Of a stretch of 64,000 nucleotides of DNA, positions 14,020-28,033 are shown piece after piece. The position numbers were made by a program, and so were the translations under genes. Origin of the DNA: Methanoculleus frigidifontis (lineage in GTDB: Archaea; Halobacteriota; Methanomicrobia; Methanomicrobiales; Methanoculleaceae); NCBI RefSeq assembly GCF_030464345.1, contig NZ_VCYH01000004.1, forward strand, positions 248,001 to 312,000, given 5' to 3'. The notes beneath the pieces are model-generated. The model had not been told where the DNA came from. It was given only the letters and a program-made list of their open reading frames with translations, and did no database searches. Every line of letters begins with the position of its first letter. Within the stretch, counting starts at the first letter, position 1.

Positions 14020-15336
14020 TTACACATAGCCTGCAACCCATGCCTTTGCTTCACGAATGGCTCTCGCGTTGTCGTGAGTGGCATCTCCATGATAATCGTC
14101 GGACGAAAACTCATAGCAATTGAGATGTTCAAAATAATAACTCCACATCACCGTATGGGTAAGACCGCCATTAAATGCATACGCCTGATTATACCCGGGC
14201 GTGCTTTCATGGTCGGCGTTAAAGTTATGACCTATCTCATGAATGCTCACACACCTGCGGCCGTGAGTCGTACCCCAATACGCCCCGTCATCCCAATCTG
14301 TTACCATCTGCGCCCAAGCGTGTCTCCCGTTGTTAGTAAATCCATATGCCGCCCCCTGGACACCAGTGCTATGATCGTAACCACCCAGATATAAGCCGAG
14401 ATCTGATGACCATGCATCAAGATCTAATAGCGGGTACACATCCCAGAAAGCACCGAGAGGATCGGATATGATTTCGGGGTGATTGGAGAGCTGAATCCGC
14501 CTGGAATCATCATACCCCATAACGCAAAGGGAGACCTGGACATCATCTCTTCCAAACTGCTGATTTGCCGTAGCGATGATGTCCTGTGCTATTGCCTTCC
14601 AATTTGTTTGATCTTGATAAAACTCATTATCTGTTGCTACAAGGATAGTAACAGTGTAATACTGCCTTGTGCCATCAACGTGCAGTTCGGTACGCTGATC
14701 ACTACCTGTTGAATATTCGCTCTCAGGTGCAACGGGCCCATAGTCAATTGTAACTGGTTCTTCCTGGTGTTCGACGTCTTTGGAGCTGTAGATGATGTGC
14801 AAAGGCGACTGTGACCTTTCCGCACGTGCTCGCGGTTCGACCGGCATGATCCAGAATGTCTCGTTATTAAAGACTACACTTCCGACGAGAACATTACTTC
14901 CAGTTGTGAGAAGGACATCACTCTCTTTCACACCCTGTATCGACCCTTCGAACGAATCGATACCGTCATCAAGGTTTTCGAATGTCATTCTGTTCAGATC
15001 AACTGTGTAGTCCTTTCCATGGATCTGAACCAGAAGTGTACCTTGTTGCACCCCCTTGTTCAATGCAGCGTGATCGAACGTCACGAGATCGTATCGGGTA
15101 ATGCCTTTGGGAATTTTGAGGTCTTCGGGCTCGATGATTCCTGAAGATTTCAGGTCAGATATGGATGTAGCATCCCGAGCAAGAACATTCATAGACTCCC
15201 CGATGACAATGGCAGGTTCATCGATACTTACTCTGACATCTTCCGTCGTGTTTTGAGCACTCACCCCCGGGGCAACCATTGCTATCGCAACGAAGCACGC
15301 CAGGAGATAGCTCAAGTGCTTTAATTGGCTTTTCAT
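14020..15336 (-). CDS. Secreted metzincin-like zinc metalloprotease
   Basis: A 438-residue protein with a signal peptide (about residues 1-28, ending APGVSAQ). A prodomain-like region follows, and a catalytic region carries HEIGHNFNADH, which fits HExxHxxxxxH with Asn replacing the usual Gly at the eighth position. TVMWSY lies about 25 residues later as a candidate Met-turn. This combination indicates the reprolysin/metzincin group. Upstream segments (YYTVTILVATDNEFYQD and GYDHSTGVQGAAYGFTNN) resemble the start of such catalytic domains. The start at 15336 follows GGAGG; an in-frame ATG 42 bases upstream would precede the signal peptide. The gene is visibly AT-richer than the surrounding genes, which suggests acquisition from outside. 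Substrate unknown. Confidence 0.8.
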   Translation of the reverse strand: MKSQLKHLSYLLACFVAIAMVAPGVSAQNTTEDVRVSIDEPAIVIGESMNVLARDATSISDLKSSGIIEPEDLKIPKGITRYDLVTFDHAALNKGVQQGTLLVQIHGKDYTVDLNRMTFENLDDGIDSFEGSIQGVKESDVLLTTGSNVLVGSVVFNNETFWIMPVEPRARAERSQSPLHIIYSSKDVEHQEEPVTIDYGPVAPESEYSTGSDQRTELHVDGTRQYYTVTILVATDNEFYQDQTNWKAIAQDIIATANQQFGRDDVQVSLCVMGYDDSRRIQLSNHPEIISDPLGAFWDVYPLLDLDAWSSDLGLYLGGYDHSTGVQGAAYGFTNNGRHAWAQMVTDWDDGAYWGTTHGRRCVSIHEIGHNFNADHESTPGYNQAYAFNGGLTHTVMWSYYFEHLNCYEFSSDDYHGDATHDNARAIREAKAWVAGYV

Positions 15337-15541
15337 TTGCTTTCCTCCAGTTTCTTCCCCCGGGGAAGAGGAACACACACTTAAGTACGCGAAATGTGTA
15401 CATTCCTTCTGCCTCCGGGCATGCGGGGCGCATCATCCGGGCGTCAACCAGGGATGGGCGGCCTCGCGCATTGTTACGGGTGCCGCACGCGATACCCAAC
15501 GCGTTTTTAGGTCATGAGAAGGGATAAAACCCGCAGCCGTC

Positions 15542-20088: not shown

Positions 20089-20940
20089 CTACGAGACCGT
20101 CCGGAGGGTTGCAAGGACGAAGACCAGTCCGCCAAGGCTGGTGTTAACATACGGGAGGTACCAGTAGACCCGTTCGAGCGAGAGGTCCTGCCGCAGCAGG
20201 AGAGCGAGGGGGACTGCAGGGTAGACCAGCACCAGCAGGCTGAGCGGGCGAAAGCCGGCGAGCAGAATGACAATGGCAGCGAGAGCGGACCAGAACCCGA
20301 GGCAGAGGAGGAGCGAGCCCCGCTTCTGCAGGAGAACCGCCGTCGTCATCATCCCTGCGGCCCTGTCGTAGCCGATGTCGGGGATGGCGGAGAAGAGGTG
20401 CATCGCCGCGATGTGGAAGTACCCGGCGAAGATGAGAAGGAGCGGGGGGATGGCGCCGCTCGCGAGGTAGTAGCCCAGGATGCCCGGGACGATGTACAGC
20501 ATGTTCGACGAGAAGTCGAGGAACGGCACCTCCTTGAACCGCAGCGGGGGTGCGCTGTAGAAGTAGGACAGAAAGAGGAACGAGAGGAGAAGCACCTGCC
20601 CGACAGTATCCAGCACGAAGAGCAGCGCCAGGCTGATGCCGCCCGACAGCCCGAGGAGGAGGAAGAGGTTCCGGCCGTCCGCCTGACTCAGACGATACTC
20701 TTTGACGTCCTTTTTGGGGTTGAACCTGTCGGTCTCCTGGTCCCACCAGTCGTTCACCCCGTAGATGAAGATGTTGGCGGGGAGGAAGAAGTAGAGCAGG
20801 AAGAGGATGTATTCGGGGGCGAAAAAGGCCGACCAGGAGTTCATCCCGAGCGCGTAGCCGACCACGTACGTCCCGCCGGTGTAGATCCAGAACCGGAACC
20901 GGGAGACCCGCCAGGCAAGTGAGAACAGTCGCAAAACCAC
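20089..20940 (-). CDS. UbiA-type prenyltransferase of the carotenoid cluster, lycopene elongase candidate
   Basis: A 283-residue polytopic protein of the UbiA superfamily. The first Asp-rich motif is NDWWDQETDRFNPKK (about residues 62-76) and a second, weaker one is IPDIGYDRAAG (about 183-193). Eight or so membrane helices are visible. UbiA members use an isoprenyl diphosphate to prenylate a lipophilic acceptor. Lying 14 bases downstream of a phytoene synthase gene and in a set with crtI and a CruF-like gene, it is most simply read as the C5 elongase that extends lycopene towards C50 carotenoids, as in haloarchaea. Digeranylgeranylglyceryl phosphate synthase is a less likely alternative given the context. 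Confidence 0.75.
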   Translation of the reverse strand: MVLRLFSLAWRVSRFRFWIYTGGTYVVGYALGMNSWSAFFAPEYILFLLYFFLPANIFIYGVNDWWDQETDRFNPKKDVKEYRLSQADGRNLFLLLGLSGGISLALLFVLDTVGQVLLLSFLFLSYFYSAPPLRFKEVPFLDFSSNMLYIVPGILGYYLASGAIPPLLLIFAGYFHIAAMHLFSAIPDIGYDRAAGMMTTAVLLQKRGSLLLCLGFWSALAAIVILLAGFRPLSLLVLVYPAVPLALLLRQDLSLERVYWYLPYVNTSLGGLVFVLATLRTVS

Positions 20941-20954
20941 GGTGTTTTACACCT

Positions 20955-21791
20955 CTACGTCCTCAGGGTGTTGTAGGTGGCGCCGGATACGATCCGCATC
21001 ACCGACGGTTTCACCTTGCGTCGATAGACGACGGCGGGGTCCCGGCCGATGGTCATGGCGGTCCACCGGTACATGTCCGACGCCGTCCTGATCGGGATCA
21101 GGTAGCGCCGGGGTATCCATCCGAACCCGGCCTCCGCCTGTTCCTGCCACTCCCGATACCGCCCGAGCTGGAACCGGACAAACGCCGCGAAGTAGTCCCG
21201 GTTCCGGAGGGCGGCGGTCTCCGAGAGGTCGTCGAGCCCGAATCGGTCCAGTTCTTCCCGGGGAAAGTATGTCCGCCCGAGGATGAGGTCTTCGGGGATG
21301 TCGCGGATGAAGTTGATATACTGCATCGCCCGCCCCAGGTTCCGTGCGGCAGCGTGTGATTCGGGCGCGAGGTCAAGGATCTGCGCCATCATCAGCCCGA
21401 TCACCTCGGACGAGCCGTAGAGGTAGACCTCCAGGTCATGAATCGTCCGGTAGGAGCCGACCGTGATGTCCTTCTCCATGGAATGGAGAAACGCATCCGT
21501 CCATGCCGGATCGAACCGTTTCCGCCCGGCAAGATCGACGAACGAATCGATCGCCACATCCCCTGTCGTCTCGCCTTCTCTTGCCGAGGCGTACCGGTCG
21601 ACAAAGGCGGAGAACTCCTCAACCTGCTGCGGCACGGCATCCACGTAATCGTCCGCCGTGCGCACGAAGCTGTAGAGCGCGAAGACGTCCTCTTTCACCG
21701 CCGGCGGGAAGAAGAGCGTCGAGTAGAAGTAGGTCTTGCTGCCGTGTTTGAAGATGGTGTAGAGGGTTCTGTCGATCACGACGCACCTCAC
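20955..21791 (-). CDS. crtB: Phytoene/squalene synthase family protein
   Basis: A 278-residue trans-isoprenyl diphosphate synthase of the head-to-head type. YSFVRTADDYVDA (about residues 40-52) and INFIRDIPEDL (about 160-170) are the two Asp-rich motifs that bind the diphosphates through magnesium. YCSSEV-like YLYGSSEVIGLMM lies between them. Paired with CrtI it would make phytoene from two geranylgeranyl diphosphates; a C30 dehydrosqualene product cannot be excluded by sequence. Its start overlaps the crtI stop by four bases (ATGA), so the two are translationally coupled. Confidence 0.85.
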   Translation of the reverse strand: MRCVVIDRTLYTIFKHGSKTYFYSTLFFPPAVKEDVFALYSFVRTADDYVDAVPQQVEEFSAFVDRYASAREGETTGDVAIDSFVDLAGRKRFDPAWTDAFLHSMEKDITVGSYRTIHDLEVYLYGSSEVIGLMMAQILDLAPESHAAARNLGRAMQYINFIRDIPEDLILGRTYFPREELDRFGLDDLSETAALRNRDYFAAFVRFQLGRYREWQEQAEAGFGWIPRRYLIPIRTASDMYRWTAMTIGRDPAVVYRRKVKPSVMRIVSGATYNTLRT

Positions 21792-23260
21792 TGATACCGT
21801 TCGGTCAGTTCACGGGCGACGAGCTGGGACGAGATCAGGGTCATCGGCACACCGATCCCGGGGTGGGTGTACTGCCCGGTGTAGTAGAGGTTCCCGGCCC
21901 GTTTGCTCCGGTGTGCAGGACGCCAGAGCGCCGTCTGCCAGAGGGTGTGGGTGAGCCCGAGCGCGGTGCCTTTATAGGCATTGTAGCGCTGTGCAAAGTC
22001 GGAGAGGGCGAATATTCTCTTGACGACGACGGCGTCCCGGATCTCTTCGCCGAGGATCTCCTCCATGCGGTCCATCAGGAGGTTGTAGAACCGATCGCGC
22101 AACGCCGGGGTATCCTCAAGGCCGGGAGCCAGGGGAGCCAGGACAAAGAGCGTGTCGGTGCCCTCCGGCGCAGCGGTCGTATCTGTCCTGGAGGGGACGT
22201 TGACGTAGAACGAGGGATGCGACGGCCAGGCGGCCTTCTCGGGGTCGAAGATCGTCTCGAAACTCTCCTCCCAGTCCGGTTCCAGAAAGAGGTTGTGGTG
22301 CACCAGCCCGCCGATCTCCCGGTTCACGCCCAGGTAGGCGACGAACGCAGAAGGTGCCAGGATCTTCTTCTCCCAGTACGAGGCGGAGTACGACCGTGCG
22401 TCCTCCCCGAGGAGGCGCAGCTCCGTGAAGGGGTAATCTGCGTTGACCACGACGATATCGGTATCGTAGGAACCGGCGGGGGTGACAACGTGGCGGGCGG
22501 TCTTGTGCTCCACATTGATGGCGGTCACCGGTTCGTTGTACCGATACTCGACCCCAAGCTCCCGGCCGAGCGAGATCAGCCCCTGTACAACCGCCCGGAT
22601 CCCGCCTTCAGGGTACCACACGCCCAGGTTCATATCGATGTGCGTCATGATGTGGTAGAATGAGGGGGTATTCTGCGGCGAACCGCCGAGGAAACCGATG
22701 GAGTACTGCACGATCTTCCGGGCCTCGTCGCTCTCGAAGTGGTTTTGGACAAAGGTCTCCAGGTTCTCAAAGAGGTGCAGCTTCATTCCCTCCAGGAGAA
22801 GCCGTCCGTCAAGGAAATCGAGCACCGTACGGTAGTCCCGATAGAGAAGGCTGCCCATGGTAAGGTCATACTTCTCCTCCGACTCCCGAAGATAGCCTTT
22901 CAGTTTCTCCGCCCCTCCCGGCTCAAACGACTCAAAGAGAGCGTAGTTATCCTCGAGATCGGCGGAGACGTCGACCGCTTTTTCATCGCCGAAGAAGACC
23001 CGGTACGAGGGATCCAGCCTGATGAGCCGGAAGAAGTCCTCGGGACGCCGGTCAAGCTCGGCAAAGAACCGTTCGAAGACGTCGGGCATCAGGTACCACG
23101 ACGGCCCCATATCAAACGTAAAACCATTCTCACTGTAGACGCTCGCCCGTCCCCCGGGCTGTTCGTTCTTCTCGATAACCGTGACATCGAAACCATTCTT
23201 TGCGAGAAGGACGGCGATGGAGAGACCGCCGAACCCCGCCCCAACGACTACAACCCGCAT
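21788..23260 (-). CDS. crtI: Phytoene desaturase (CrtI family)
   Basis: A 490-residue FAD-dependent carotenoid oxidoreductase. The N-terminal VVVVGAGFGGLSIAVLLAKNG with VTVIEKNEQPGGRA is the dinucleotide-binding fold, FTFDMGPSWYLMPD the next conserved block, and the C-terminal NLYYTGQYTHPGIGVPM the FAD-binding carotenoid desaturase signature. The frame is open to 23368, but homology begins at MRVVVVG, which sets the start. It introduces double bases into phytoene to give lycopene or an intermediate. It could alternatively be a CrtD-type 3,4-desaturase; only one such gene is present in the window. Confidence 0.88.
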   Translation of the reverse strand: MRVVVVGAGFGGLSIAVLLAKNGFDVTVIEKNEQPGGRASVYSENGFTFDMGPSWYLMPDVFERFFAELDRRPEDFFRLIRLDPSYRVFFGDEKAVDVSADLEDNYALFESFEPGGAEKLKGYLRESEEKYDLTMGSLLYRDYRTVLDFLDGRLLLEGMKLHLFENLETFVQNHFESDEARKIVQYSIGFLGGSPQNTPSFYHIMTHIDMNLGVWYPEGGIRAVVQGLISLGRELGVEYRYNEPVTAINVEHKTARHVVTPAGSYDTDIVVVNADYPFTELRLLGEDARSYSASYWEKKILAPSAFVAYLGVNREIGGLVHHNLFLEPDWEESFETIFDPEKAAWPSHPSFYVNVPSRTDTTAAPEGTDTLFVLAPLAPGLEDTPALRDRFYNLLMDRMEEILGEEIRDAVVVKRIFALSDFAQRYNAYKGTALGLTHTLWQTALWRPAHRSKRAGNLYYTGQYTHPGIGVPMTLISSQLVARELTERYQ

Positions 23261-23417
23261 TGATAAACCCCCTGGCAGGAACAGAAACAGACGAAAGAAC
23301 ACAGATCTCGCATATAAATTTTCCCGCTGCCGAAGAGACCGAAGATCCGATCGACGCCGGGGCTGCATTTCCCGTGCAAACCAATTCCACCCGGAGCATC
23401 TGCCGGGCGCTCATCTG

Positions 23418-24173
23418 CTATTCCCGGGGTGAGTCGTCCCTGAAAACGACCAGGCAGGTTGCCGCAAAAAGCCCCGCCCCGAGAAATGCCGGTATGAGAA
23501 GGCCGTTCTGTGCAAGATAGCCGATCCAGAACGCCAGAATGAGCAGGAGACTGCTCGCCACCATCCCGGGAACCGATCGAGCGGCTGCGAGTTTCCGGGC
23601 GGCGATGAGCGAGATGAGCCCGATATAGGCAGCCCCGGTCAGCACCCAGCCTGCGAAGTTCGAGACCGGGACACCATAGTAGGCGCCCTCCTCCGCCCAG
23701 ACCCAGAGACCGGCGTGCACGGCTGCCGGGTCGATGACAAGATCGATGAGCAGAAGGAGGAGGGTTCCTGCCGGAATCAGCCGATACCATGCAGTGCCGA
23801 CGGCGGCGCTGGCGACGGTCACCGCTCCGAGCAGCATCGGCAGGTACGCAAATGCAACTGTCCAGGGAACGAGATCGAAAAGGGGATCTCCGAGGTGCGG
23901 AGAATAGGTGAACCTGCCGTAGGGAACGCCGGTGGCGACGGCATACGCCTCGACGAGCAGGGGCAGCAGGCTGAGCAGAACCAGGAGTCCGATGCCTCTC
24001 ACCGCCCCGAGCCACCGCACAAGGGCGATATACGAAGGAAGAGCGAGCCCGATCAGGAAGATGACCGACACAACAGACGCCAGATCGGGCGCATCGAAGC
24101 GCACCACCAGGTATCCGGCGAGAAAGAGGATCAGGGCAACGGAGAGGAGCCCCCACCTGACGGAGAGTTGCAT
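23418..24173 (-). CDS. CruF-like carotenoid biosynthesis membrane protein (DUF422 type)
   Basis: A 251-residue polytopic protein with about eight membrane helices. Polar segments between helices include VEAYAVATGVPYGRFTYSP, GDPLFDLVPWTVAFAYLPM, IDLVIDPAAVHAGLWVW and EGAYYGVPVSNFAGW, which match the conserved layout of CruF/DUF422 carotenoid hydratases: a glutamate after the helix, YG.F.Y, DPV/DPAA and YGVP..NF.GW. In haloarchaea the family hydrates the ends of bisanhydrobacterioruberin. It is first in the cluster, about 157 bases upstream of crtI, with GGATA/AATAT-type AT-rich sequence in that gap. The start at the ATG 24173 follows the hydrophobic protein's natural N-terminus. Confidence 0.78.
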   Translation of the reverse strand: MQLSVRWGLLSVALILFLAGYLVVRFDAPDLASVVSVIFLIGLALPSYIALVRWLGAVRGIGLLVLLSLLPLLVEAYAVATGVPYGRFTYSPHLGDPLFDLVPWTVAFAYLPMLLGAVTVASAAVGTAWYRLIPAGTLLLLLIDLVIDPAAVHAGLWVWAEEGAYYGVPVSNFAGWVLTGAAYIGLISLIAARKLAAARSVPGMVASSLLLILAFWIGYLAQNGLLIPAFLGAGLFAATCLVVFRDDSPRE

Positions 24174-24217: not shown

Positions 24218-25345
24218 CTATACCCGCTGCAGCGACCCCATAAACCGGTTTCGGATCTCCTCCGGGGTGTACGGGACGTTCGGCACCGGTGCGTTCCCCG
24301 GTTTCAGGACGATATGGATGAAGGCGGGTCCCCTCCCCCGCGCCTCCCATGCCTCCCGGATCTCCTCCGGTGTATGGGCTTTGGCGGTGTTCCGGATCCC
24401 AGCGGCGATCGCGAGAAGTTCCATATCCACCTGGCCGTAGGCGCTCGTCGGCTGGTTGCCGGTGCTGCCGAAGGCGCCGTTGTCCAGGCAGACGACGGTG
24501 AGGTTTGCGGGAGCTTCGGCCGCCACTACCGGGAGGACGGCCGAGCCGAGCAGGCTGCCGTCGCCGTCGAGCACCACCACGTCGCGGCCCGACTGCAGCG
24601 CGAGCCCGAGGCCGATCGGCGTCGCCTGGGTGTAGCTCCCGAGCATGTAGAAGTTCTCGGGCCGGTCGCGGGCGGCATAGAGCTCCTTTGAGGGGACGCC
24701 GATGTTCGCAACGACGAGCTCGCCCTCAAGGAGGTCGGCGATCACCCGGATGGCAGCGAACCTCGTCATCCCGGGTTCGCGGATCGTCCGATGGTATTCG
24801 AGTAGGGATTTCCGGCTCCGGGGCGGGAGCGGCGATTCTGCGGGTGTACAGACATCCCCCGGCCCCTCCCAGAAGGACGGCACAATCAGAGCCACGTGCG
24901 GGCGCATCTCGCCGTAGGCATTCTCGATGACGGCGTCGATCAGGCCCGCCTCCGTCTCGTCCCGGATGATGGTGTACGGGATATCGAGCGCGTCGAGCAC
25001 GCCGGGAAGCGCCCGGTTGAACGGGACCTGGGCAGGGATACTCTCGTGGTAGACGCCCCGCCAGCTCGCGAGGATCGGGAGCGGGAGATCGAAGGTCACC
25101 GTCAGGGACATGACGGCGTTTAAGGAGTTGCCGAGCCCCGAGCTCTGCATGTGCAGCGCCGGCCGCCCCCCGGCGAGGGCGAGCCCTGCAGAGATGCCGA
25201 TGCCGTCCTCTTCGCGGGTGAGAACGACGGTGCGCAGCCGCTTCGGAAAGAGAAAGCAGAGATCTTTGGTCTTATCGCAGGGGAGCGATACCACCGTATC
25301 GATTCCCTGGCCGGCGAGCCGGTCGATGACGTGCCGTTCATGCAT
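24218..25345 (-). CDS. comDE: Sulfopyruvate decarboxylase, fused alpha and beta subunits
   Basis: A 375-residue thiamine-diphosphate enzyme that converts sulfopyruvate to sulfoacetaldehyde in coenzyme M synthesis. The N-terminal half (about residues 1-165) is ComD-like: VVSLPCDKTKDL, TREEDGIGISAGLALAGG with the catalytic-type Glu, and MQSSGLGNSLNA. The C-terminal half (about 185-375) is ComE-like: GVPSKELYAARDRPENFYMLGS and the thiamine site LDGDGSLLGSA ending in LDNGAFGSTG. Methanocaldococcus has two separate subunits, so this is a natural fusion as in other Methanomicrobia. It overlaps the end of the cysteate synthase gene by eight bases. Confidence 0.93.
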   Translation of the reverse strand: MHERHVIDRLAGQGIDTVVSLPCDKTKDLCFLFPKRLRTVVLTREEDGIGISAGLALAGGRPALHMQSSGLGNSLNAVMSLTVTFDLPLPILASWRGVYHESIPAQVPFNRALPGVLDALDIPYTIIRDETEAGLIDAVIENAYGEMRPHVALIVPSFWEGPGDVCTPAESPLPPRSRKSLLEYHRTIREPGMTRFAAIRVIADLLEGELVVANIGVPSKELYAARDRPENFYMLGSYTQATPIGLGLALQSGRDVVVLDGDGSLLGSAVLPVVAAEAPANLTVVCLDNGAFGSTGNQPTSAYGQVDMELLAIAAGIRNTAKAHTPEEIREAWEARGRGPAFIHIVLKPGNAPVPNVPYTPEEIRNRFMGSLQRV

Positions 25346-26612
25346 GGGACGCCACCCACCCTGCAATCTCATGCCGCACCGCATCGTCGAGGGACGCACC
25401 GGCAGGGAGGCGGAGGAACGGCTCGATCCGGTGCTGCTCATGATCCTCCCGGACGCGCTCGTAGCCGCCGCCGGTGATGTTGAGGAGAACGCATCGTCCG
25501 GTATCGATCGTGTCCCGTTCGACCGCCTGCACCAGTGACGCGACGCAGACGGCTGCCGCCGGATCGAGGTCGATCCCCTCGGTCTCCGTAAAGAGCGCCC
25601 CGGCAGACCGTGCCTCGTCGTTGGTAGCCGCATACATCCGCCCGCGGGTCGCGACGAGGGCGTCGTAGACGCCGCCCTTTACCCCGTACGGCGGCTCGCG
25701 GTTCGTCAGCACGTCGGCAGAGACCGCCGCGATCGCCTGCCGTGCATCGGGCATATCCTCATGACGGATCCAGTCCCGCCCTGCCTCCCACGCACGCACC
25801 ATCGGGATGAAGGGGACGTTCTGGGAGAGGTGGAGCTCGGGGCGGTGTGTTCCGAACCGCCCGTCGCCGATCAACCGCTCCGCCGCTTCCCACGCGGCAA
25901 TGCCCCCGGTCCCGCTCCCGACCGCCTGGAAGTAGTAGTCGGGCAGCCTGCCGGCGGCCAGCGTGCCGTCGAGCATCGTCGTGCCCATCCCGTCCCGCCG
26001 GGCGACGTTCCGCGCCCCGCCCTCGGGGGTGATCCCGGGGATTGTGGCGATCTCCCTCCCGAGCTGTATGGCATCGGTGTAATCCCCCTCGATCGTGATC
26101 AGGCAGACCGATCCGGCCTCCTCGGTCGTCCAGAGGCGATCGGCGTTCTCCGCCGGGACGACGACGACGACCGGCATCCCGGTCAGCGCCGAGACCTGGC
26201 AGAACGCCCGCCCGGTGTTCCCTGCCGATGCGATCTGGAGGATGCCGCTCCCTTTCTCGCGCAGGCGGAGAACTGTCGGCTGCGCCTCGAGCTCCTTGAA
26301 CGAGCAGGTCAGGATATTGCCTTTTCGTTCCGGCCAGTATCCGGAGAAGGTGACGATGAGATGCTCAAGCCCAAGCTCCCGCGCGAACGCCTCGCTCCGG
26401 TAGGAGACCGGTCCCGCATCCAGCGGAAGCGAGTGCTCCACCGGGAGCCAGTCGATGTAGCGGAACATGCCGGGCAGGTCTTTGATGTCGAGCTGCCGAT
26501 TCCGGTAGTAGGTCCTGACCAGCGCTGTGCACTGCGCAGGGCATTCAAGGGTATAGTGGTCGTCGAACGGCAGCCAGCACCCGAGGCACTGCAGCCGGTA
26601 TTTGTCGTCCAT
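25338..26612 (-). CDS. Cysteate synthase
   Basis: A 424-residue PLP enzyme derived from threonine synthase. It begins with a Cys-rich strand LQCLGCWLPFDDHYTLECPAQC, as threonine synthases do. The candidate PLP lysine lies in NILTCSFKELEA (about residue 105), and ASAGNTGRAFCQVSA is the phosphate-binding or substrate segment. In Methanosarcina the enzyme makes L-cysteate from phosphoserine and sulfite for coenzyme M. The neighbouring comDE gene, which it overlaps, and the absence of comABC here support this over threonine synthase. Transamination of cysteate to sulfopyruvate could be done by the aminotransferase encoded elsewhere. Confidence 0.88.
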   Translation of the reverse strand: MDDKYRLQCLGCWLPFDDHYTLECPAQCTALVRTYYRNRQLDIKDLPGMFRYIDWLPVEHSLPLDAGPVSYRSEAFARELGLEHLIVTFSGYWPERKGNILTCSFKELEAQPTVLRLREKGSGILQIASAGNTGRAFCQVSALTGMPVVVVVPAENADRLWTTEEAGSVCLITIEGDYTDAIQLGREIATIPGITPEGGARNVARRDGMGTTMLDGTLAAGRLPDYYFQAVGSGTGGIAAWEAAERLIGDGRFGTHRPELHLSQNVPFIPMVRAWEAGRDWIRHEDMPDARQAIAAVSADVLTNREPPYGVKGGVYDALVATRGRMYAATNDEARSAGALFTETEGIDLDPAAAVCVASLVQAVERDTIDTGRCVLLNITGGGYERVREDHEQHRIEPFLRLPAGASLDDAVRHEIAGWVASHA

Positions 26613-26618
26613 CTCGTA

Positions 26619-27851
26619 TCATCTCCCGGAGAGGGGAAAATCTCCGCTCAGTATCTTCTCTTTGAGGTCGATGCAGATCTCCTCCGCACGCCTGCGGCTG
26701 GACTGCCGCAGGGTGATCGGGATCTTCCGGCCCCGGAGACGGAGGGAACCGTAGTCGCCCTCACAGGCGCTGCTTGGGCAGACTGTGATACACGTGCCGC
26801 AGTCGATGCAGCGGTTCCGGTCGATGCCTTTTCCTTTCGAAAACGCCCCGGTCGGGCAGGTTTCGGCGGCGAAGCAGACCGAGCAGTCCTCGCACCAGTC
26901 GGGATAGTACTGCACGCACCGGTCTGTCGTCTGCCAGACCGCCCCGTACGAGCCCTCCCCGAGAACCTTCCGGTCGTTGATATCGGCAATCGGGATGGGG
27001 ATCTCCTCGTCGAGGACGCGGAGCGGCGCGAGGCTGCGCTCGTCGAGCACCGGGATGGGCACGGCGATGCTGATGAAGCACTCCGGCGACGCGGAGGTCC
27101 GAAAGCCGCCGAGATACTGCGACCGCATCCCGCATATCTCTGCGCTGATTGAGAGGTTCGGCCTTTCCGGGCTGCTCCGCGTGCCCTCGCCGACGACGAT
27201 CCCGGCGGCTCCGTTCAGGAGGACCGATGCACCCGCACCGAGGGAGAGCCGGGCGGGGTCGTTCTGCAGCGGGTTTATCTCGCCGCAGCCGCTCACCGAG
27301 ACCTCGCGGCACGGGCCGCGGAGCCCCCGCACCGAGAAGATGGTGGAAACCATCGTCGGCCGGCGGTTCACGAAGGCCGTGTAGTTCTTAAACGCGCTCC
27401 GGGTCGTGAACATCCGGGCGAACGGCAGGTCTTCGAGCGTCACCGCCGCCTCGAAGGTCTGGTTCTTCGCCTCCGCCACGACCTCGATCCGGTTTCCGGC
27501 GGCGAGGTCGCGGAGGAGGTGGCCGCCGCCGTAGTCGGAACCCGCATGAGCGGTGCCGGAGACGATGAGATCGACGAGGCCGAGCCGCTCGTTCGGGCAG
27601 GGGCCCGGCAGGCACGGCACGCCGTTCAGCCAGACCTTCTCCGCCCGTTCGAAGCTCCCCGCAGGAGCGACCGGCACCGAGAGGATGGCGGCGGTGCCCG
27701 ACATCACCCCGCAGGTTCCGGTGGTGACGACGTCGACATCGGCCGCAGAGAGCGCCTCCCCCTCCCGGACGAGCGCCTTGAACTCGGCGGCCGTGTAGAC
27801 GACCGCCTCGCCTCGCCGGATCTTCTCCCCAATCTCCTGAACCGTCTTCAT
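26619..27851 (-). CDS. Methanogenesis marker 16 / DUF39 sulfurtransferase with C-terminal ferredoxin domain
   Basis: A 410-residue protein. Residues about 1-310 are the DUF39 domain: VVTTGTCGVMSGTAAIL, VWLNGVPCLPGPCPNERLG and CREVSVSGCGEI carry conserved cysteines. Residues about 320-375 bear two Fe-S clusters: CEDCSVCFAAETCPTGAF and CIDCGTCITVCPSSAC. In Methanosarcina the DUF39 family makes homocysteine from aspartate semialdehyde with sulfide, assisted by a separate ferredoxin; here the ferredoxin is fused. It is the first gene of a three-gene operon, 6 bases ahead of cysteate synthase, so sulfur assimilation into coenzyme M and homocysteine may be coordinated. The start MKTVQEIGEK overlaps a short upstream frame as ATGA. 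Confidence 0.88.
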   Translation of the reverse strand: MKTVQEIGEKIRRGEAVVYTAAEFKALVREGEALSAADVDVVTTGTCGVMSGTAAILSVPVAPAGSFERAEKVWLNGVPCLPGPCPNERLGLVDLIVSGTAHAGSDYGGGHLLRDLAAGNRIEVVAEAKNQTFEAAVTLEDLPFARMFTTRSAFKNYTAFVNRRPTMVSTIFSVRGLRGPCREVSVSGCGEINPLQNDPARLSLGAGASVLLNGAAGIVVGEGTRSSPERPNLSISAEICGMRSQYLGGFRTSASPECFISIAVPIPVLDERSLAPLRVLDEEIPIPIADINDRKVLGEGSYGAVWQTTDRCVQYYPDWCEDCSVCFAAETCPTGAFSKGKGIDRNRCIDCGTCITVCPSSACEGDYGSLRLRGRKIPITLRQSSRRRAEEICIDLKEKILSGDFPLSGR

Positions 27852-28033
27852 AACAACCTGATATCCTCCACCCGCACGTAGAGCCCGCAGGACTTTCCGA
27901 GCACCATATTCACAACCCCCGTATGCGTCAGGTTCATCATGCAGTACCCGGGTGATTCCCGTGAAACCAATGATGTGGTAGCCCTCCACATCCTTAAACT
28001 CTCTGCCCCGGGGTGCCTGCGCCGGTCAGGCAT
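27848..28033 (-). other. Short upstream frame of uncertain reality before the coenzyme M operon
   Basis: A 61-codon frame ends ...GVVNMVLGKSCGLYVRVEDIRLL (second half of the product) and overlaps the DUF39 start as ATGA, the arrangement of a translated upstream gene. The last 30 residues look protein-like. The first half does not, whereas another frame across the first half reads plausibly (EFKDVEGYHIIGFTGITRVLHDE). A frameshift inside a small gene would reconcile them. A separate start MRFLSVDA followed by a stop lies just upstream at about 28025-28051. It may be a broken small gene or a translated leader of the operon. Confidence 0.3.

Follow-up and report, generated by a model that had tools for sequence, protein, structure and literature searches.

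The strictly anaerobic methanogen Methanoculleus frigidifontis carries a compact four-gene carotenoid cluster, closely similar to the set with which haloarchaea make their red C50 pigment, that we read, with a probability of about 0.7, as a functional operon that makes an acyclic, bacterioruberin-type C50 carotenoid. Going by the gene content, the product would most likely be bacterioruberin itself or a relative with less desaturation or hydroxylation. The cluster lies on the minus strand at 20089–24173 of the window, by which we mean the whole 64 kb stretch of DNA that was analysed. A CruF-like protein followed by CrtI, CrtB and, directly downstream, a UbiA-type prenyltransferase had been proposed in a preliminary description of this DNA. 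The proposal is confirmed, since the four open reading frames were verified at their coordinates and their Pfam and NCBIfam family scores lie far above chance. The features are:

23418–24173, minus strand: CruF-like carotenoid hydratase candidate (PF04240), 251 aa
23311–23322, minus strand: archaeal BRE/TATA-like box AAAATTTATATG, about 50–60 nt before the CrtI start
21788–23260, minus strand: CrtI-type phytoene desaturase (NCBIfam CrtID; possibly a bifunctional phytoene/3,4-desaturase), 490 aa
20955–21791, minus strand: CrtB, predicted phytoene synthase, 278 aa, GTG start
20089–20940, minus strand: LyeJ-type UbiA prenyltransferase, predicted lycopene elongase, 283 aa, GTG start

Gene layout and host

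The genes are tightly packed. The GTG start of crtB overlaps the stop of crtI by 4 nt, and 14 nt separate CrtB from UbiA. The 526-aa CrtI frame in the initial list is over-extended; the true start is at 23260, where the Rossmann sequence MRVVVVGAG begins behind a purine-rich stretch, and relatives use the same start. The host genome encodes two McrA proteins, both above cut-off. Directly upstream of the cluster lie methanogenesis marker 16, cysteate synthase and a fused sulfopyruvate decarboxylase alpha-beta (window 26619–27989 and 24218–26612), and both cysteate synthase and sulfopyruvate decarboxylase serve coenzyme M biosynthesis. The GC content of the cluster (0.614) matches that of the window (0.62). 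The McrA pair, the coenzyme M genes and the matching composition together identify a methanogen locus and rule out a contaminant. Elsewhere in the window, 14020–15378 encodes a 452-aa secreted metalloprotease-like protein with the HExxH-type motif HEIGHNFNADH and no NCBIfam match.

A prenyltransferase of the lycopene elongase type

The window UbiA scores 78.3 bits on PF01040 (cut-off 34.2) and 354.7 bits on PRK12875 (cut-off 205). Haloarchaeal UbiAs encoded between crtI and cruF, the LyeJ position, reach 459–463 bits on the same model, the title of which reads 'prenyltransferase' only. The C50 potential suggested earlier for this cluster is thus supported, the UbiA passing the model that its haloarchaeal LyeJ counterparts pass. 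A grouping with DGGGP synthases had been named as the outcome that would speak against this potential; it was checked and did not appear. The DGGGP synthase of the host is a separate gene (L178 on contig C2; PRK12882 323 bits, cut-off 296), and models of archaeal geranylgeranylglycerol-phosphate geranylgeranyltransferase gave no match to the window UbiA at E 0.001. In profile-profile comparison the window UbiA matches haloarchaeal LyeJ at E 5.6e-64, against 0.0018 for the DGGGP synthase of its own host. In a phylogenetic tree, the UbiAs encoded in the clusters of methanogens, Asgard archaea, Thermoplasmata, Calditenuaceae and haloarchaea all group together, parted by a long branch from the host's DGGGP synthase and from its two other paralogues; the tree was built by a quick method, in which very long outgroup branches are placed with uncertainty.

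The alignments agree with this picture. The blocks SRxRFWxYxxG, YSAPPLRFK and MHxFSAIPD are common to the window UbiA and haloarchaeal LyeJ and are missing in the host's DGGGP synthase; an NDxxDxxTDxxNPKK block is also common to the first two. Over 27 archaeal members, the cluster UbiA alignment holds 50 invariant columns. AlphaFold models the window UbiA with confidence, and among solved structures the model best matches A. fulgidus UbiA with DMAPP bound (4tq4), a match that confirms the UbiA fold of the model and says nothing on substrate. On these comparisons the protein is a predicted lycopene elongase of the LyeJ type, distinct from DGGGP synthase.

CrtB and the CruF-like protein

The window CrtB is intact, carries the Asp-rich motifs and scores 179.3 bits on SQS_PSY (PF00494, cut-off 26); it falls short of the NCBIfam CrtB models. 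Where CrtM, the C30 enzyme, has Phe26, the window protein carries a small residue, Thr, as do the haloarchaeal CrtBs. We take this position to be the site that sets C30 or C40 chain length. The protein shares a clade with CrtBs of other anaerobic archaea and of Spirochaetes, apart from haloarchaeal CrtB. Its identity is about 52% to the Spirochaete enzymes, compared with only about 30% to the haloarchaeal ones. We know of no characterised member in this clade. The best inference from the sequence is that its product would be phytoene.

The CruF-like protein scores 142.7 bits on Caroten_synth (PF04240, cut-off 25), which places it in the family. It stays below both curated CruF models, with 107.8 bits on TIGR03460 (cut-off 154.7) and 79.9 bits on CruF_Halo NF041333 (cut-off 300). 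Four other non-haloarchaeal archaeal CruFs that were scanned also miss the curated cut-offs, whereas three haloarchaeal ones pass. Profile-profile comparison gave E values of 9.8e-27 with haloarchaeal CruF, 4e-12 with the Spirochaete proteins and 1e-10 with other bacterial proteins. In the tree the branch that leads to the haloarchaeal clade is very long, at about 2.9 changes per column. Nineteen positions, among them E75, D144, D148 and N172 in window numbering, are invariant in methanogen, Asgard and haloarchaeal members. AlphaFold predicts the structure with confidence (pLDDT 94.4), and no solved structure matched the model. Affinity to unrelated membrane families, the other outcome named as adverse, is not borne out, for both profile and tree assign the protein to the archaeal CruF family. 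Our best guess from these comparisons is that it acts as the hydratase, for which it is a candidate.

Extent of desaturation

The window CrtI passes TIGR02734 (460 bits, cut-off 238) and NF058655, the model for the bifunctional CrtID (687.8 bits, cut-off 640). The latter match was considered as proof of a bifunctional enzyme and dropped: NF058655 also accepts two Bacteroidetes CrtIs (L100 and L125, one of them from Flavobacterium) at 730–770 bits, higher than the window CrtI, so its label is not specific. The 'bifunctional CrtID' label of NF058655 may more generally over-annotate plain phytoene desaturases.

In the CrtI tree both haloarchaeal types fall in one clade, with the methanogen CrtI outside it. 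The window enzyme is 48–52% identical to C0507-like enzymes and 44–46% to D1086-like paralogues; the plain phytoene desaturases of Bacteroidetes are about as near to it as the haloarchaeal bifunctional enzymes are. A single CrtI-type gene had been noted at the locus, and the count holds genome-wide, where the search returned one full gene and otherwise short N-terminal FAD-domain matches of at most 33 bits. The conclusion drawn from that count, that the product may stop earlier, is weakened. Haloarcula japonica C0507 and D1086 each carry out both phytoene desaturation and 3,4-desaturation (PMC11946383), so one CrtI could suffice and the number of genes is in principle no reason for an early stop; the methanogen CrtI does, on the other hand, lie outside the clade in which this bifunctionality is proven. 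From its sequence, 3,4-desaturation by the window CrtI is plausible.

Promoter and selection

The sequence TTTATAT occurs once on the minus strand of the 64 kb window. It lies in the box AAAATTTATATG, whose A..T.TATAT core is unchanged in ten relatives amid intergenic DNA that has otherwise diverged, and which is the probable promoter of crtI-crtB-ubiA. A sigma-70 promoter scan found nothing, as expected in an archaeon. Comparison of the genes with those of relatives gave dN/dS of 0.13–0.29 in pairs with measurable, unsaturated dS, and 0.13–0.17 for CrtI where dS was measurable. The cluster genes are under purifying selection.

Distribution of the cluster

CrtB is present in 35 of 232 genomes of the host order, or about one in seven. 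All 35 also encode CrtI and CruF, and 34 encode the elongase; in the exception, G070, the cluster lies at a contig edge. A survey of related genomes for the cluster had been suggested, and it shows the full set recurring in 34 of the 35 CrtB-bearing genomes. Distribution within the order is patchy (CrtB in 11 of 40 genera), and one genome of the same family, G049, retains a deletion remnant (L177, contig C14, 6094–7094) in which CrtI and CrtB are gone and the initial portion of CruF continues, out of frame, into the latter half of UbiA. The patchiness and this remnant indicate that loss of the cluster is under way in the order.

Outside the order, the four-gene set is found in Methanosuratincola, in archaeon NM3, in Thorarchaeota and Hermodarchaeota (Asgard) and in haloarchaea, with some changes of gene order; in some of these archaeal loci CrtB stands apart and is accompanied by a second CrtI. 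Loci of Calditenuaceae and Caldarchaeum (L081, L091, L094, L096, L097, L099) hold CrtI-CrtB-UbiA with no adjoining CruF. Conversely, Sphaerochaeta and related Spirochaetes (L085–L090, L095) have CrtI-CrtB-CruF and lack the elongase. The CrtI and CrtB of these Spirochaete clusters belong to the same lineage as those of the anaerobic archaea, which suggests a transfer between domains and, for the Spirochaetes, a hydroxylated C40 product.

Discussion

The nearest known system is the haloarchaeal cluster, represented by c0507-c0506-c0505 (crtD-lyeJ-cruF) of Haloarcula japonica with crtB nearby. The four gene families are common to both; the UbiAs pass the same cut-off, the CrtIs are about 50% identical, and in both the genes are clustered, UbiA and CruF adjoining CrtI in most loci. 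In named haloarchaeal records the annotation reads crtI-prenyltransferase-cruF, with phytoene synthase encoded alongside. The methanogen order differs in that CrtB stands between CrtI and UbiA, and CruF ahead of CrtI. The methanogen cluster differs further in the clade of its CrtB, in a CruF below the curated cut-offs, in a CrtI outside the haloarchaeal clade, and in a methanogen host where two quinone-pathway markers were not found.

A second relative is the bacterial C50 elongase CrtEb of the Corynebacterium flavuxanthin pathway, a UbiA-family lycopene elongase that acts on an acyclic C40 carotenoid. A Corynebacterium glutamicum protein matches PRK12875 in a control search, yet the cut-off was passed in only 1 of 14 control genomes. 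The passing genome is presumably that of Haloferax volcanii, given the approximately 460 bits of haloarchaeal LyeJ. To our knowledge CruF is not part of the Corynebacterium pathway.

Among archaea, C50 carotenoids are regarded as a trait of the haloarchaea. The preliminary description called carotenoids unusual in methanogens. For pigments this stands, since carotenoids of methanogens are entered as unknown in a 2022 review (PMC9410494). For the genes it stands less well: methanogen CrtB and CrtI clades already appear in the comparative phylogeny of Klassen (2010; PMC2889829), which in its parts dealing with these clades does not discuss an elongase, CruF or a C50 product for methanogens. In Methanothrix MAGs, a search for the bacterioruberin genes came up empty (PMC9128505). 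Among the titles and abstracts listed for Methanoculleus, Methanospirillum or Methanomicrobiales, none reported a methanogen pigment, and the literature searched contained no account of a methanogen operon with LyeJ and CruF. The parts are known; what is new is their occurrence in a methanogen, the way the genes are ordered, the lineage of CrtB and the divergence of CruF.

The reading as a C50 operon is weakened by a CruF that misses the curated cut-offs while the haloarchaeal CruFs occupy a very long branch, by a CrtI outside the proven clade with an unspecific CrtID label, by a CrtB clade in which we know of no characterised member, and by the lack of an evident usual electron acceptor. A sub-case of this reading is that CrtI stops at lycopene and the C50 skeleton is made without 3,4-desaturation, giving a flavuxanthin-like or tetrahydro-bisanhydrobacterioruberin-type product with CruF hydration optional. 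We regard this as a serious possibility that falls short of even odds. The placement of CrtI outside the haloarchaeal bifunctional clade, with Bacteroidetes plain phytoene desaturases about as near, would fit it, and Ha. japonica deficient in 3,4-desaturase continues to form tetrahydro-BABR (PMC11946383); the slightly closer relation of the window CrtI to C0507-like than to D1086-like enzymes, both bifunctional, points the other way. It is unlikely that the product is an acyclic hydroxylated C40 carotenoid, with UbiA acting on another lipid. UbiA proteins do take many substrates, and the Spirochaetes keep CrtI-CrtB-CruF clusters free of this UbiA, but the window UbiA has the invariant residues and the family model of haloarchaeal LyeJ, and within the order an elongase always accompanies CrtB, one contig-edge case apart.

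Two further readings would remove the pigment altogether. The cluster may be a relic, or silent and on its way to being lost, as its patchy occurrence in the order and the G049 remnant might suggest; with every window frame intact, low dN/dS and the promoter box kept, this is quite improbable. Still harder to credit is a CrtI homologue that serves a membrane lipid, hydroxyarchaeol, with no carotenoid made. A phytoene desaturase homologue of Methanosarcina acetivorans is reported to have that role (Mori 2015, as cited in PMC9128505), but the control search, run at 1e-60, turned up no CrtID match in M. acetivorans, which places its enzyme in another subfamily, and the window CrtI is accompanied by CrtB, elongase and CruF.

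For the C50 operon, we infer each catalytic step, the exact product and the membrane function from the identities of the genes. CrtB would join two GGPP into phytoene, and the single CrtI would convert phytoene to lycopene and possibly introduce the 3,4 double bonds as well. The LyeJ-type UbiA would add a C5 unit from DMAPP onto each end of lycopene to give C45 and then C50, and CruF would hydrate the C50 ends. The product would be placed in the membrane. No match to PF18916, the lycopene cyclase family searched, was found in the host genome.

Because the operon is intact, under selection and present in cultured methanogens (Methanoculleus and Methanocalculus, with isolates such as Methanoculleus sediminis and Methanocalculus chunghsingensis), whether methanogens make a C50 pigment can be tested at once. 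If methanogens make C50 carotenoids, it has to be asked whether sediment C50 carotenoid biomarkers must come from halophiles, and how desaturation runs without oxygen or quinones. Known CrtI enzymes hand their electrons to oxygen or quinones. Two markers of the quinone pathways were searched in the host genome, which is 99% complete: the MqnA/MqnD family is absent, and MenD has no match over cut-off. With both markers absent, no usual electron acceptor for CrtI is evident. A conserved redox-partner gene beside the cluster was also considered and rejected, as the neighbours compared across lineages include none that is redox-partner-like; the recurrent ones are mostly opposite-strand artefact frames or unrelated genes. 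A wider proposal, which we offer as speculation and hold to be rather doubtful, is that anaerobic archaea including methanogens make C50 carotenoids with desaturase electrons passing to neither oxygen nor quinone, for example to an F420 or ferredoxin system. The operon would then represent an old archaeal C50 pathway that haloarchaea remodelled for oxic life. As a separate observation, the host carries a distant MenA-like UbiA protein (L181, 1396–2454) even though MqnA/D and MenD are missing.
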